From Saccharomycopsis phalli (Eukaryota > Ascomycota > Saccharomycetes > Ascoideales > Saccharomycopsidaceae): a stretch of 64,000 nucleotides of DNA. The stretch's first letter is position 1, and each line of letters starts with the position of its first letter. The stretch is from positions 1,652,501 through 1,716,500 of the forward strand of contig CP073213.1 of assembly GCA_020342235.1 (NCBI GenBank), written 5' to 3'. A program made the translations under genes and the position numbers. The notes under the pieces were generated by a model. That model searched no databases and was not told the DNA's origin. It worked only from the letters and a program-made list of their open reading frames with translations. Below are positions 1,901 through 62,763 of the stretch, piece after piece.

Positions 1901-1998
1901 GTTACAGTGGCCGAGTGGTTAAGGCGATGCCCTGCTATAGTATGGCCTAAGTTAGGCATTGGGTTTTACCTGCGCAGGTTCGAATCCTGTCTGTGACG
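1901..1998 (+). tRNA. tRNA-Ser(GCT), intron-containing
   Basis: All arms fold. The acceptor GTTACAG pairs with CTGTGAC (one G-T), followed by discriminator G1998. The D loop has GAGTGGTTAA, the T arm is GCAGG-TTCGAAT-CCTGT, and there is a long variable arm. The anticodon stem ATGCC/GGCAT closes the loop CTGCTAA, giving anticodon GCT at 1934-1936. A 16-nt intron (1938-1953) lies just after position 37, the usual site, and contains the small palindrome GCCTAAGTTAGGC overlapping the stem. A six-T run at 2002-2007 is the Pol III terminator. It reads AGC/AGU serine codons, and S. cerevisiae tRNA-Ser(GCU) is also intron-bearing. Confidence 0.96.
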
Positions 1999-4138: not shown

Positions 4139-4903
4139 ATGAGCATAAGTGACAAGCAACTAACTCCTGATCCCGAGAGACAGTACCTCCACAAGATTGA
4201 GACCAGTGCCGACGGTGCTGTGGTGCACTTGGGCCCCTATGCTTTCAACAAGGACGAGCTTGTGAATGCGTTTGGCGGGCAATTAAACCCTGGGATTCAC
4301 GGCTTATCGTCTGTGAGACTTGGTAACCCAGCTGCGATGGGGTTGGCGAGTTTTGCGTTTTGTGCGTTTGTCGTGAGTCTTATCCACCTCCAGACCCGAG
4401 GGGTGACGAACCAGGCGATATTGATATCTGCGTGTTTGTTCTACGGCGGTGCGATTGAGCTAATTGCCGGGATACTATGTTTTATCACCGACAACACGTT
4501 TGCCGGCACGGCGTTTGGGTGCTTTGGCGGGTTCTGGCTCAGTTACGGCGGCATTCTCTCGGACAAGTTTGACATCAAGTCGAGCTATGCCACCGAGGCG
4601 GAATTCAACAATGCGCTTGGGTTCTTTTTGATTGGGTGGGTGTTTTTCGCGTTTGCGCTTTGGATTTGCACGTTCAAGGCCACCTGGCCGTTCTTCTCCT
4701 TGTTCTTTCTCCTTGTCGTGTGGATCTCGGTGTTGGCAATTGGGGTGTTTACCGGCAAAGCCGGCGTTGTCAAGGCTGCAGGGGTGTTGGGGTTGCTTGC
4801 TTCGTTCAATGCGTTGTACTTGATGTGGGCAGGTATAGCCACTCCGGAGAATTCGTACTTCCAAGCGTTGCCGCTCTACATGCCACACGCACCGAGAATA
4901 TAA
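4139..4903 (+). CDS. Acetate/ammonium transporter of the Gpr1/Fun34/YaaH (AceTr) family
   Basis: The 254-aa protein has a hydrophilic N-terminus of about 60 residues and then six hydrophobic segments. The family signature appears as NPAAMGLASF (canonical NPAPLGL) just before the first membrane helix. Relatives are Ady2/Ato1, Ato2 and Ato3 of S. cerevisiae, the expanded ATO set of Candida, and bacterial SatP. They export ammonium or import acetate and succinate at the plasma membrane, usually during growth without glucose. The coding sequence uses TTG and GTG heavily but contains no CTG. I do not assign a particular ATO number because the family expands independently in each yeast lineage. Confidence 0.9.
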   Translation: MSISDKQLTPDPERQYLHKIETSADGAVVHLGPYAFNKDELVNAFGGQLNPGIHGLSSVRLGNPAAMGLASFAFCAFVVSLIHLQTRGVTNQAILISACLFYGGAIELIAGILCFITDNTFAGTAFGCFGGFWLSYGGILSDKFDIKSSYATEAEFNNALGFFLIGWVFFAFALWICTFKATWPFFSLFFLLVVWISVLAIGVFTGKAGVVKAAGVLGLLASFNALYLMWAGIATPENSYFQALPLYMPHAPRI

Positions 4904-20027: not shown

Positions 20028-20172
20028 GTTGGTATGGCGGAGTGGTAAACGCGCCTGCTTCAGGCTGTGATGTTGCGAGGGAGGCATGTCAACATGTGCA
20101 GACGCATCCCGAACAAAGGACTGAGCCCGCAGGTCTCGTAGAGGGGCATGAGTTCGAATCTCATTACCAACA
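20028..20172 (+). tRNA. tRNA-Leu(CAG) with 63-nt intron
   Basis: The acceptor GTTGGTA pairs perfectly with TACCAAC and is followed by discriminator A20172. D stem is GCG/CGC, the base at position 26 is G20054 or its neighbour, and the anticodon stem is CCTGC (exon 1) with GCAGG (exon 2). The loop TTCAGGC gives anticodon CAG at 20061-20063 with U33 and G37. The intron is 20065-20127. A 14-nt variable arm (CTC-GTA-GAG) and T arm ATGAG-TTCGAAT-CTCAT follow. A five-T terminator is at 20173-20177. The anticodon arm matches yeast tRNA-Leu(CAA) except for the third anticodon base. It would read CUG. The A73, U33 and arm shape are leucine-type, unlike the Candida tRNA-Ser(CAG), which has G33 and G73. 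Confidence 0.93.
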
Positions 20173-20183
20173 TTTTTGGCAAG

Positions 20184-50448: not shown

Positions 50449-51510
50449 TTAAATTGACTGTAGTATTTCTTCCGTTTTTATTATCTTCCTACGCTTGGTA
50501 GGCAATTCTTTCGTGGGCTTGGATTCTCGTTTTTCTTTTACATTTACCCCGTTATTTAGGTCGCTCAAGTCGGCAGCAAACAATACAGAGTGTGCCCATC
50601 CTGCATAGTCGCCCCACATATTTCGGAAAAAGTCACCCGTCTCCAGGTACGTCTTCTGGTTCAATACTTTGCCGCTTTTGAACTTGTAGTCACGCTGGGC
50701 AATCGTCCAAACATGTGTGTCGATTGGAACAACATCGTGCTTGTCGAGACTCATCAAACACACACAATCAGCAACCTTGGGACCCACTCCTGTGAACTTG
50801 AGTAGACTCGAATGAGCCTCTGGGTATGTACTGCTGCGAAGTTTGTGGAGATTTGCAAGGCCATCTGGATCGCCGCTTATCATCTTGGCGGTCTTCTGTA
50901 TGTACTTTGCCCTGTACCCAAAGCTTAAGTCACGTAATTTCTGCTCAACTTCGTCACTGGCTAGGTCCTGTGGGGTTGGGAAAGTATAATACTTTTGGCC
51001 CTCGTGAGTACATATATAATTTCCAAAGTTCACACAGAGGTTCTCGCACATCTGCGAGATCCGCTTGACGTTGTTGTTAGTAGAGCAAATAAACGATATT
51101 AAATTTTCCCATGGGTCCTGCCGAAGGATTCGAATTCCTCCAAAATTTTTGCTATTCTTTTTAAAATTGTCGTCCTTCGCCGACCATTCGCGGTATAGTT
51201 GCTGTAGCTCAACATTAAGGTTTAGGTAGTTCTTAACCACTTCCAAAGTGTCATCAACATGCACCTTACTATCATCCGGAAATATGCAACCCACAGAGAT
51301 CCTCTCTGGGTCCTGCCTTAAGAAGATGACTCTCCCGCTCAATGAGCATGACCAAGTCTGGTTGATGTTCTTCCATCTAAAAGCCTGGCCGCATCTCAAG
51401 ACTCGGGCCAACGAGACTTCCTAAACATTAGTAATCTTGTTTGACGTAATTCCGATTTTACCATTCATTACATTTTCCAGAATCGCAAGGGTTTTCCATG
51501 TTAGTTTCAT
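50449..51510 (-). CDS. OGG1: 8-oxoguanine DNA glycosylase/lyase, two exons
   Basis: Exon 1 is 51510-51472 and exon 2 is 51420-50449, giving 336 aa. Exon 1 supplies MKLTWKTLAILEN, and splicing gives EVSLARVLRCGQAFRW, matching the Ogg1 N-terminus. The helix-hairpin-helix carries the catalytic Lys (GVGPKVADCVCLM) and Asp (VVPIDTHVW), plus LISFICSTNNNVKRI. Ogg1 removes 8-oxoG paired with C and nicks the strand in nucleus and mitochondria. A basic Lys/Arg C-terminus (TKRRKIIK) looks like a nuclear signal. In TLAILENE the Leu after Ile is CTG; relatives have Ser or Asn there. Confidence 0.95.
51421..51471 (-). other. Spliceosomal intron of OGG1 (51 nt)
   Basis: Donor GTAATG (non-consensus at positions 5-6), branch TACTAAT, acceptor GTTTAG. 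The donor is the weakest part of the call, but phase 0 here gives the conserved N-terminus. Confidence 0.85.
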
Positions 51511-57262: not shown

Positions 57263-60200
57263 TTACCTTCTTAGGTAAGTCAAGTGTGGTTTATAGGTAG
57301 ACTTCCAATTATCAATCTCTTCTCCGTCCACCACGCAATCCAAGTCATATAAATATGACAAATAATTGGCCCAGCTCTTCCCGGTATTCAGTAAAACTTT
57401 TGAGTTACCAATAACAATTAGACCTTCTCTGGCTCTAGTAATACCAAGATTCAAACGTCTATAGTCAGCAAGTTGTTTAATCTCTTCCTGGTTTTTCTGG
57501 TCCAAGTCATGACTTCTTACAGTACTGAATATTATGTACCGCTTCTCCTTGCCTTGAAACGAGTCTAATGCGCCTATTTCCAAGTTCTTAACCTTTTCGA
57601 TTATTGACATTTCGTACTCATTAGGATTATGGTTCTCAAACAAAAAGTCAGACGATGAAGTGTTGGAAATTTGAATTTGGCCACCTTTATCTGTAGCCAT
57701 GCTCTTTCTTACACTGGTCCTTCTGCTGTTTCTTCGACTTAAACGCTTGGAGTCACGCGTATGCTCCTGGAGACCAGCAAACTCTTGTCTAAATAAATTT
57801 CCCAATAGTGCTCTTTGCCCGACGTAAGAAGTAATAATCCCAATATCCTTCAAGTCTATTCCTTTTCCAAAATACAAGTGCTTAACTAGTTTTACAATTG
57901 CATCCGCTTCATATGCATTTTGGTACGTTTTCTGGTTGATGAAGAAGTTGGCAATATTGTTTATCTTCTTGCGGTATCCAATGTCATTCTCGTGGTATTT
58001 TTGTTCGTTTAACATGTCCCAGAATAAAATTTGTTGCTGGTTAGGAAATCCCAATAAAGAATGTCTACTGGTATTCCTAGCAACGCCATTTATAAGATCA
58101 CCATTATAGATGAACTTATTAGGATAATCGGCTATGAAAGTTGTCATCCGATATTGCTCAGTTAAATGAATTGGTTTAGCCAATTGATTATACAAGACAC
58201 GTTGGAATAAAGATTGTTTAAGTTTCTTGCATTCTTTGGTATCATGAACATAAGGATTGAGCTGCTTGTCGTCTCCAATTAAAATCAATTTCTGACAGTT
58301 CCTAGATATAGGCAACAAACTTAAAAGGTTCATTGTGGCAGAGCAATCGTCAATTATAATGGACTTGAACTTGATATTTTTCAATTTGGGGTCAAGTGAA
58401 TTGTAGCACGTTGTGAATATCACATCTTGAGACAGGAAAAAGTCATAGTAGAATTTGTTAAGTTTTGCAAGGTTATTTGTTGAGATATTCTGGCTTCTGT
58501 TAGATTTATACTCAATAAATAAATCAACCAAATCTTCAGGAGCATTACTTAAAATGAAATTGTGAAAGCACAACTCTCCTATTCTATGATTTTTATCATA
58601 CAGTGACTCCTTTAATGGTGCAATTAATCTTGTTAATAAAATATCCGAGTCACCATAAGTATTGTGGAAAGTTTCACACAAACTATCAACAGTGGAATTT
58701 GATCCTGAGCAGACTAAAACAGGCTTCAACTTCTTTTCAATCAAATTTTTGATTATTGTCAGCGACACCATTGTCTTTCCTGTTCCTGTGTGGCCCTTGA
58801 TAAGGATCACTTTGTTGCTATCTAAATTATCTATGGCTCTTCTTTGTGGTAAATTGAAATTGTCTTGGTATATGTTTTTGCTTTTGAAAGATGATAGTTT
58901 AAACTCAAAGTTCTCAAAGTTTTTTCCCAAAATTAAATTCAACAAGAACTGGTTCAACATAGTCTTGCCTTGCAATACGTCAAATAATACTTGTATGATT
59001 CTGCTGAAAACTAGATCAAATGGAATAATGAAGAATAATTTTGAATCATTAATGGTAGTACTTTCAAGCTTGACTGTTAGATTGGTATCATTGGTAGTAA
59101 AGAAATTCTCAGTGCTGTAATCATTAGGTTTTCCATTTATTGACAACACTTCAATCATAATTTCAGGATTAAAATTATTGTTCGGTATTTGTTTCACAAC
59201 TGTGAACATAATTCTATTGGACTTTGCATGCTTGAAACCAAGAATTTGTCCAATCTTCAAAACAGGCAAGTTATAATTAGTATTTAATCGTACCGTGATA
59301 TTAGTAGGCATACGATTATTAAACTGAATTATCTTATAGGGGATGTACACTAGATTATCTGTCAATTTGCTGCTAGTAGAACTCAAAGTTAACATGGCAT
59401 ATTGTTCCTTGTATAAAAGATTTAAGTTATCAAACGCAAACTTTTTGAAAGTCTCATAGCTCGTCAATTTGGACAAGTGGGTCTTGGTGATCTTCTTTAA
59501 GCCACTAGTCTTGTCCTGCAAAGAACTAAGCTCTTCATTTAATAACGGCGAAGTCACAGATTTGGAAACAGGTCTGGGTGCTGTAGGCGGTTGCTCTTCT
59601 CCTTCGTTTTTATCTATATCATCTTCATCATCACTGTCATGAAACTGGTACTCATTATTCTCGTCTATTAAGTTGTAATGATCATTAGTCTTCAACTCTA
59701 GCTTCTTCAATTCTTTCAATCTTTGATCCTCTGACTGGTAGATATCACCCAAGTTAATTTGAGAGTATATTAATTTGAAATTTTGGTTGGAATTATCGGC
59801 AAGAATCAACCTGTTGAAGAAAAACTTTTTCAATCCAAATTTATTTGTCTTGTCAAGGGAGTTTATTATCGGTTTAAAGTAGTCGTCTTCAATCTCACTA
59901 TCACCAAACAATGATTCCTGCAACTTGTTAAAACACAGAAGTGTATCATTGCTGCAAAAAAATATCAACTTCTTGTCTGAATTTTCCAACTTGTCAACTT
60001 GGGAGTATTCTGTTTTCAAATTTACAAGTTCTTTGTCCACTTGGTTTATTAAAATGAATGACAATTCATACACGTTAGTATTGGAACACTGGGAACACTC
60101 AATGAGTGTATCTTTATATTTCCAGTCTATTTCATCCTCTGTTTCTTTTTTTTCCTCTTCTTCTTCTCCCATACTTGCAAACAAGCTCCCTTTATCCTCC

Positions 60201-62641: not shown

Positions 62642-62763
62642 GATGAGACAATTACCGCTTTTTATAACTTTTTCCTGTGAGGACGGATTGCGGCGGGTAA
62701 TAACCAATAGATGTATTAATCTGCAGCTTACTGAGAGGATCACGAGGTCTATAAAATTTTTTT
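62642..62763 (+). promoter_or_regulatory. PAC-like and RRPE-like sites of UTP5
   Basis: GATGAG at 62642-62647 and AAAATTTTTTT at 62753-62763, in the 206-bp divergent promoter of NCB2 and UTP5. The same pair occurs before SGD1, another ribosome-biogenesis gene. Confidence 0.5.

Follow-up and report, generated by a model that had tools for sequence, protein, structure and literature searches.

The window analysed here, a stretch of 64,000 nt of Saccharomycopsis phalluae DNA, contains a tRNA gene with the anticodon CAG and leucine-type features, and the sequence-only reading noted at the same time that CTG codons seemed rare in the surrounding genes. This raises the question of what CUG encodes in this yeast. 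It was proposed that the DNA stems from a lineage which recoded CTG and kept its tRNA-Leu(CAG), that a second tRNA(CAG) exists elsewhere in the genome, and that CUG is serine or ambiguous. Yellow rot of the mushroom Phallus rubrovolvatus has been attributed to S. phalluae, whose assembly comprises 14,148,124 bp in 8 contigs, with a largest contig of 2,335,166, an N50 of 1,822,654 and an N90 of 1,540,684 (PMC8468998). The analysis of this assembly argues strongly that the gene is an ancestral, structurally intact tRNA-Leu(CAG) in a CUG-Ser2 yeast which would decode CUG as serine, and we consider this reading highly probable.

The nature of the gene is clear from three sources. The Rfam tRNA model RF00005 matched it with 49.6 bits and with ends exactly at 20028 and 20172. 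At the same positions ARAGORN, run under the standard code with introns allowed, returned tRNA-Leu (cag) with an intron of 63 nt, unlike a default tool run, which found nothing there. Direct reading of the sequence gave T33, C34-A35-G36, G37, A73 and a long variable arm, and all positions of the acceptor stem are paired. Thus Rfam, ARAGORN and the sequence agree on the tRNA as it was first described, with anticodon CAG, U33, A73, a leucine-like variable arm and a 63-nt intron; the intron boundary has an ambiguity of 1 nt. The leucine identity features used to classify such tRNA genes are A73, A35 and G37 (PMC8629427), and all of them are carried by this gene. The 11 letters of its B box are identical to those in the tRNA-Leu(CAA) of the same genome (L025). 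The labels A box and B box in Table 1 follow the known consensus. Since both boxes and an adjoining T5 are present, the sequence bears no mark of a pseudogene. The neighbours of the gene are a 243-aa ORF behind SGD1 on one side and TRM1 on the other. Searching the complete assembly with the 82-nt mature sequence returned one place only, matched as two exons, and no second copy of tRNA-Leu(CAG).

Table 1. Positions of the tRNA-Leu(CAG) gene, its parts, and the serine tRNA genes considered in the text
Feature	Position	Strand	Length or content	Basis
tRNA-Leu(CAG), whole gene	20028..20172	+	145 nt; mature tRNA 82 nt	Rfam RF00005 and ARAGORN
5' exon	20028..20064	+	acceptor GTTGGTA, D arm, anticodon stem, T33, CAG at 20061-20063, G37	direct sequence reading; exon match
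A box (TGGCGGAGTGG)	20035..20045	+		sequence reading
Intron, after position 37	20065..20127	+	63 nt	ARAGORN; exon split 20065/20128
3' exon	20128..20172	+	anticodon stem, long variable arm, T arm, acceptor TACCAAC, A73	sequence reading; exon match
B box (AGTTCGAATCT)	20151..20161	+		sequence reading
T5 Pol III terminator, immediately 3' of the gene	20173..20177	+		sequence reading
tRNA-Ser(GCU)	1901..1998	+		Rfam 48.2 bits; ARAGORN Ser(gct)
tRNA-Ser(CAG), three copies (L032, L033, L034)	C3:1181464, C5:1553999, C7:1519016		D-arm-to-anticodon places	pattern search

When the genome was searched with a D-arm pattern for tRNAs with a long variable arm combined with the anticodon CAG, four matches were obtained, namely the tRNA-Leu(CAG) and three tRNA-Ser(CAG) genes. 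The latter lie on other contigs, in line with the proposal of a second tRNA(CAG) elsewhere. They are 91 nt long with one difference among the copies, contain a 10-nt intron, start with GATACAG and end with CTGT(G/A)TC followed by G73, and have a long variable arm. In all three copies found the mature loop is CACAGAA (C32 A33 CAG A37 A38), and the spliced anticodon arm is the same as in the S. malanga tRNA-Ser(CAG) probe (PMC8629427). The mature sequence is 82.9% identical to tRNA-Ser(GCU) compared to 66.3% for tRNA-Ser(AGA), as determined pairwise and without a tree. A tRNA-Ser(GCU) gene is present in the window itself, with an intron of 16 nt by our own parse and of 5 nt as placed by ARAGORN. 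According to Krassowski et al. (2018, PMC5951914), tRNA-Ser(GCU) is the origin of the Ser2 tRNA-Ser(CAG), and A37 is its residue; judged by sequence, the three tRNA-Ser(CAG) genes resemble this published ancestor.

Three D-arm patterns and the one DNA search mentioned above returned no further tRNA(CAG) gene. A pattern with a longer Leu D loop had no match in the genome, and one Ala D-arm pattern, allowing up to three mismatches, had 16 matches, all with Ala anticodons. A tRNA-Ala(CAG) was not found with this single pattern, which would miss an Ala gene whose D arm diverges strongly. In the genome-wide Rfam tRNA search, 63 of the 806 candidates were scored.

Two peculiarities of the tRNA-Ser(CAG) genes were observed in addition. 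All three copies found (L032, L033 and L034) have A33 in place of the nearly universal U33, and A33 is present in the S. malanga tRNA-Ser(CAG) probe as well (PMC8629427); how such a loop works on the ribosome deserves attention. The copy L034 is located head to tail with a tRNA-Leu(UAA) gene on the minus strand (C7:1518961-1519140), at a distance of 5 nt according to the Rfam ends. Because of this short spacing and because no T run lies between the two genes, the pair is probably transcribed by Pol III as a single transcript.

The meaning of CUG was assessed with paralogues from the same genome, which made external alignments unnecessary. From 116 listed kinase matches 70 domains were taken, and from 38 DEAD-box matches 10 ORFs; mitochondrial carriers were matched in the genome search too and were left out of the inference. 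With CTG masked, every codon received a score from the residues which the other sequences have in its column; the columns used were at least 80% occupied and had enough other sequences. In this way 77 CTG sites were counted. The standard amino acid was the best one for 60 of the 61 sense codons, the exception being CTG, for which it was Ser. Over the 77 sites Ser scored +16.9 bits, Asn -31.2, Ala -48.5 and Leu -170.1, placing Ser ahead of Leu by 187 bits and ahead of Ala by 65 bits; an earlier run with 30 kinases alone had again given Ser, at 38 CTG sites. The mean Ser/Leu score per site was +1.64 for CTG, +2.14 for true Ser codons and -4.45 for Leu codons. In the DxWSxG motif, for example, the serine position is occupied by CTG in three kinases and by Ser in 50 of 67 others. 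At the 12 CTG sites in columns where one residue reaches at least 50%, this residue is Ser (4), His (3), Leu (2), Pro (2) or Arg (1). The tabulation of CTG columns, which had been suggested as a check of the original idea, thus gave Ser and not Leu when run on the paralogues. Lack of any other tRNA(CAG) together with CTG columns dominated by leucine had been named as the picture to be expected of a standard code, and neither half of it was found.

It could be argued that both tRNAs are used and that CUG is a mixture of Ser and Leu, corresponding to stochastic decoding of the Ascoidea asiatica type. Both tRNA genes are intact and look chargeable by their sequences, the Leu gene having A73, A35 and G37 and the Ser genes G73 together with a long variable arm. 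For 7 of 11 species of Ascoidea and Saccharomycopsis the program Codetta made no assignment of CUG, and both tRNA(CAG) types were detected in charged form in S. malanga (PMC8629427). However, columns with at least 50% Leu contain 2 of the 77 CTG sites compared to 15 of 1185 Ser-codon sites, which is not a significant excess (Fisher p = 0.28), the fitted Leu-like share of CTG sites is 2.7% (profile interval 0-13.2%), and the gene copies stand at three for Ser versus one for Leu. For the six true Ser codons the best estimates of the same share were 0-2.4%, and for the remaining five Leu codons 96-100%. Sites which look Leu-like by a score below -2 bits make up 9 of the 77 CTG sites and 8.9% of the true Ser-codon sites. 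Mixed decoding on an appreciable scale is improbable in our opinion, while a few percent of Leu at CUG would be compatible with the sequence data. From the original proposal of a serine or an ambiguous CUG, the serine is well supported by the Ser-like CTG sites, and appreciable ambiguity finds no support in the columns.

If CUG is decoded as serine, as we prefer to assume, it would be read mainly or only by the tRNA-Ser(CAG) with its three gene copies, and the single tRNA-Leu(CAG) gene could, by its sequence, still give rise to a tRNA which is made, spliced and charged with leucine. Expression and charging in S. phalluae are judged from its relatives. In S. capsularis and S. malanga the tRNA-Leu(CAG) was not transcribed in YPD according to RT-PCR, and in S. 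capsularis CUG is Ser by mass spectrometry (PMC5951914). On northern blots of saturated S. malanga cultures, tRNA-Leu(CAG) was present with a signal at least 10-fold weaker by eye (PMC8629427). Since both tRNAs are charged in that species, silence of the Leu gene is not to be presumed in S. phalluae. Nevertheless, since the leucine signal in the proteins is within the noise, the gene is most likely silent or very weakly expressed. As far as the coding sequences tell, it is a retained relic that leaves no visible trace in the proteins.

Krassowski et al. (PMC5951914) suggested that tRNA-Leu(CAG) may be needed in particular states, for instance in meiosis. It would be a long shot to assume that in S. 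phalluae the gene is switched on in stationary phase or during sporulation and delivers Leu to the few CUG sites needing it; if true, the meaning of one codon would change in the course of the life cycle. A GCK-III/MST-type kinase (L092, C1:456409-457101), which among solved structures is closest to MST4/STK24, contains a CTG at a position where MST4/STK24 and 44 of 68 other kinases of the genome have Leu. Presumably this kinase resembles the sporulation kinase Sps1. The site fits conditional reading as Leu, but it is a single site picked post hoc; and because HRN replaces the catalytic HRD in this kinase, and CTG is not significantly enriched at Leu columns overall, we take the site as a lead rather than as evidence.

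A further alternative concerns the identity of the serine tRNA genes. ARAGORN labelled the three of them as Thr (tgt) i(33,10), which would make them tRNA-Thr(UGU) genes with an odd intron. This is very unlikely, since the label requires a non-canonical intron between positions 32 and 33, whereas an intron at the canonical position 37/38 yields the anticodon arm of the S. malanga tRNA-Ser(CAG) probe. Moreover, the genes have a long variable arm and G73, and ordinary tRNA-Thr(TGT) genes are present in the genome (L001 and L002).

The codon usage in the window bears on the possibility that the code is standard, with CUG read as Leu and CTG merely avoided. CTG accounts for 94 of the 16,186 codons in 32 window ORFs, with none in the transporter at 4139 and in DPB4, one each in ARO8, NDE1 and DYS1, and five in DNF1. 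These counts match the earlier statement that CTG is rare in these genes. The degree of the rarity is mild: the ratio of observed to expected CTG is 0.52, when the expectation is derived from the position-wise base composition of the window ORFs, and CTG is the fifth lowest of the 61 sense codons after AGG, GTA, CGT and ACG. Thus CTG avoidance in the window is real but mild. Together with the intact tRNA-Leu(CAG) and the presence of some CTG codons at Leu columns, it would be in agreement with a standard code. Against this stand the score of Leu far below that of Ser at the CTG sites, in a test that recovers Leu for each of the five other Leu codons, the presence of three tRNA-Ser(CAG) genes, and the finding of CUG as Ser by mass spectrometry in two species of the clade. 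We give a standard code practically no chance.

Domain scores in the window provide a cross-check. The window ORFs were translated with CTG as Leu, as Ser (table 12) and mostly also as Ala (table 26), and the Pfam scores were compared; the Leu and Ser scans covered 20 ORFs and the Ala scan all but 4 of them, none of which is among the 17 matches considered below. One family was counted per CTG-bearing region and overlapping secondary families were left out, resulting in n = 17, with the CTG of Sec39 presumed to be inside the domain match, in a stretch other than the listed one, which holds no CTG. Ser scored better than Leu in 15 of these matches, the sum being +30.4 bits; the exceptions are Patatin with a tie and MA3 with a score 0.2 bits better with Leu. 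The noise level of the comparison follows from SYY_C-terminal and UPF1_Zn_bind, which contain no CTG and shifted by 1.3 and 2.0 bits, with the lower scores for Ser. Outside the 17, GTP_EFTU in a Ras-like protein was 1.4 bits better with Leu. In the helicase at 57263, ResIII and DEAD were 1.2 bits better each with Leu and AAA_19 was 1.1 bits better with Ser, the protein at 62643 had weak WD40 matches with Ser or Ala only, and the scores of DNF1 changed by at most 0.6 bits among the three codes. One family is clearly against Ser: PF00400 (WD40) in the HIR1-like protein, also outside the 17, reached 110.2 with Leu and 103.6 with Ser, 6.6 bits in favour of Leu, in a match that overlaps another propeller family and in which the CTG-holding stretches are indistinct. 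Overall, and with this one family as the clear exception, the Pfam scores in the window agree with CUG as Ser.

The CTG columns from solved structures were tabulated without TRM1, the mitochondrial TyrRS and codon 249 of RER2. The sequence-only reading had stated that CTG often meets a polar residue in relatives. This holds for codon 50 of RER2, where the solved relative has Lys, and for 5 of 9 CTG sites compared with yeast Hir1, which has charged or polar residues there; at the other Hir1 sites, Leu is found twice and Ala or Val twice (RER2 and Hir1 by eye). The comparison for DYS1 does not match: at codon 257 human DHPS has Leu, between two gaps, and not the supposed Gln. Single CTG sites are mixed, as one would expect of a codon occurring mostly at weakly conserved positions, while the sum is clear.

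A CUG-Ala code might find some room in the Pfam comparison, in which Ser is ahead of Ala by only 5.0 bits in sum over the 17 matches, a gap that would not by itself separate the two; it has virtually no probability in view of the distance between Ala and Ser in the paralogue test and of the 16 matches of the Ala pattern, none of which is a tRNA-Ala(CAG). Paralogue scores, tRNA searches and intron position were the grounds on which the standard code with simple avoidance, the CUG-Ala code and the Thr(UGU) label of ARAGORN were rejected.

Some observations made along the way have to do with gene structure and genome content. The OGG1-like ORF at 50449-51051 on the minus strand of the window encodes only 200 aa, and its start falls within the HhH-GPD domain, at profile position 18; a missing upstream exon or a frameshift may be the reason. 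Three matches to mitochondrial carriers (C2:1763788-1764042, C4:1393903-1394172 and C8:232775-233041) have one in-frame stop each and are perhaps gene ends, introns or broken copies. A search with a Pfam family for killer-plasmid-like DNA polymerase gave no matches in this genome and none in the control genomes, and the result is therefore uninformative.

The situation found here is known from the genus. An article by O Cinneide et al. from 2024 (Genome Biol Evol evae166) reportedly deals with it, to judge by its title. The presence of both tRNA(CAG) genes in Saccharomycopsis was reported in 2018 (Krassowski, PMC5951914), and cases of this kind were described by Krassowski 2018, Junker 2019 and Shulgina and Eddy 2021. 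Only the record for the species and some details of the genes look new: the literature searched contained no record of CUG in S. phalluae, of three tRNA-Ser(CAG) genes or of a Leu(UAA)-Ser(CAG) pair separated by 5 bases, and the name S. phalluae is absent from PMC8629427. In the text of the genome paper (PMC8468998) the terms CUG, CTG, codon and genetic code do not occur, and the predicted proteins of S. phalluae may therefore carry Leu at CUG. The genome's own sequence argues for using serine (NCBI table 12) for this species. Further, a near-chromosome assembly is added to the few yeasts which are late in the code change and keep both tRNA genes, so that the puzzle of an intact, apparently unused tRNA-Leu(CAG) can be addressed in S. 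phalluae as in its sister species.

Comparison with known systems sets S. phalluae apart from the other recoded clades. In CUG-Ser1 yeasts (Candida) the tRNA-Ser(CAG) descends from a UCN-reading tRNA, mostly has G37, and is not accompanied by a tRNA-Leu(CAG), whereas S. phalluae has A37, Ser(GCU) as the nearest tRNA and a tRNA-Leu(CAG). The tRNA-Ala(CAG) of the CUG-Ala clade was not detected with the one Ala D-arm pattern. Ascoidea asiatica also possesses both tRNA(CAG) types, and Muhlhausen et al. 2018 are said to have described stochastic CUG decoding in it; it mixes Ser and Leu, whereas the CTG columns of S. phalluae give no significant sign of a mixture, a low level being invisible from sequence.

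Among closer relatives, S. schoenii has two tRNA(CAG) types like S. phalluae, and its peptides showed CTG as Ser in 450 proteins and as Leu in 13; its tRNA(CAG.1) has m1G37 and no G33, while the tRNA-Ser(CAG) of S. phalluae has A37 and A33 (Junker et al. 2019, PMC6508603). With S. malanga (Shulgina and Eddy 2021, PMC8629427), S. phalluae shares an identical tRNA-Ser(CAG) anticodon arm and a homologous T arm of tRNA-Leu(CAG), and in the acceptor stem of the latter, compared for the 3' strand only, two positions differ. The tRNA expression was measured in S. malanga.

As a Saccharomycopsis, S. phalluae belongs to the CUG-Ser2 clade (Ascoidea and Saccharomycopsis; Ascoideales), in most species of which the ancestral tRNA-Leu(CAG) is retained (Krassowski et al. 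2018, PMC5951914); 10 out of 11 species of these two genera have both tRNA(CAG) genes (PMC8629427). S. phalluae is not among the species named in the available part of the 2018 account, next to which it stands out by its three tRNA-Ser(CAG) genes, one of which follows a tRNA-Leu(UAA) at a distance of 5 nt. The original placement of this DNA in a CTG-recoding lineage with a retained tRNA-Leu(CAG) has thus held. As in most other members of the clade, a tRNA-Leu(CAG) is kept beside a tRNA-Ser(CAG) which has A37, is nearest to Ser(GCU) and probably derives from it, and the columns of paralogues and Pfam families point to CUG as serine.
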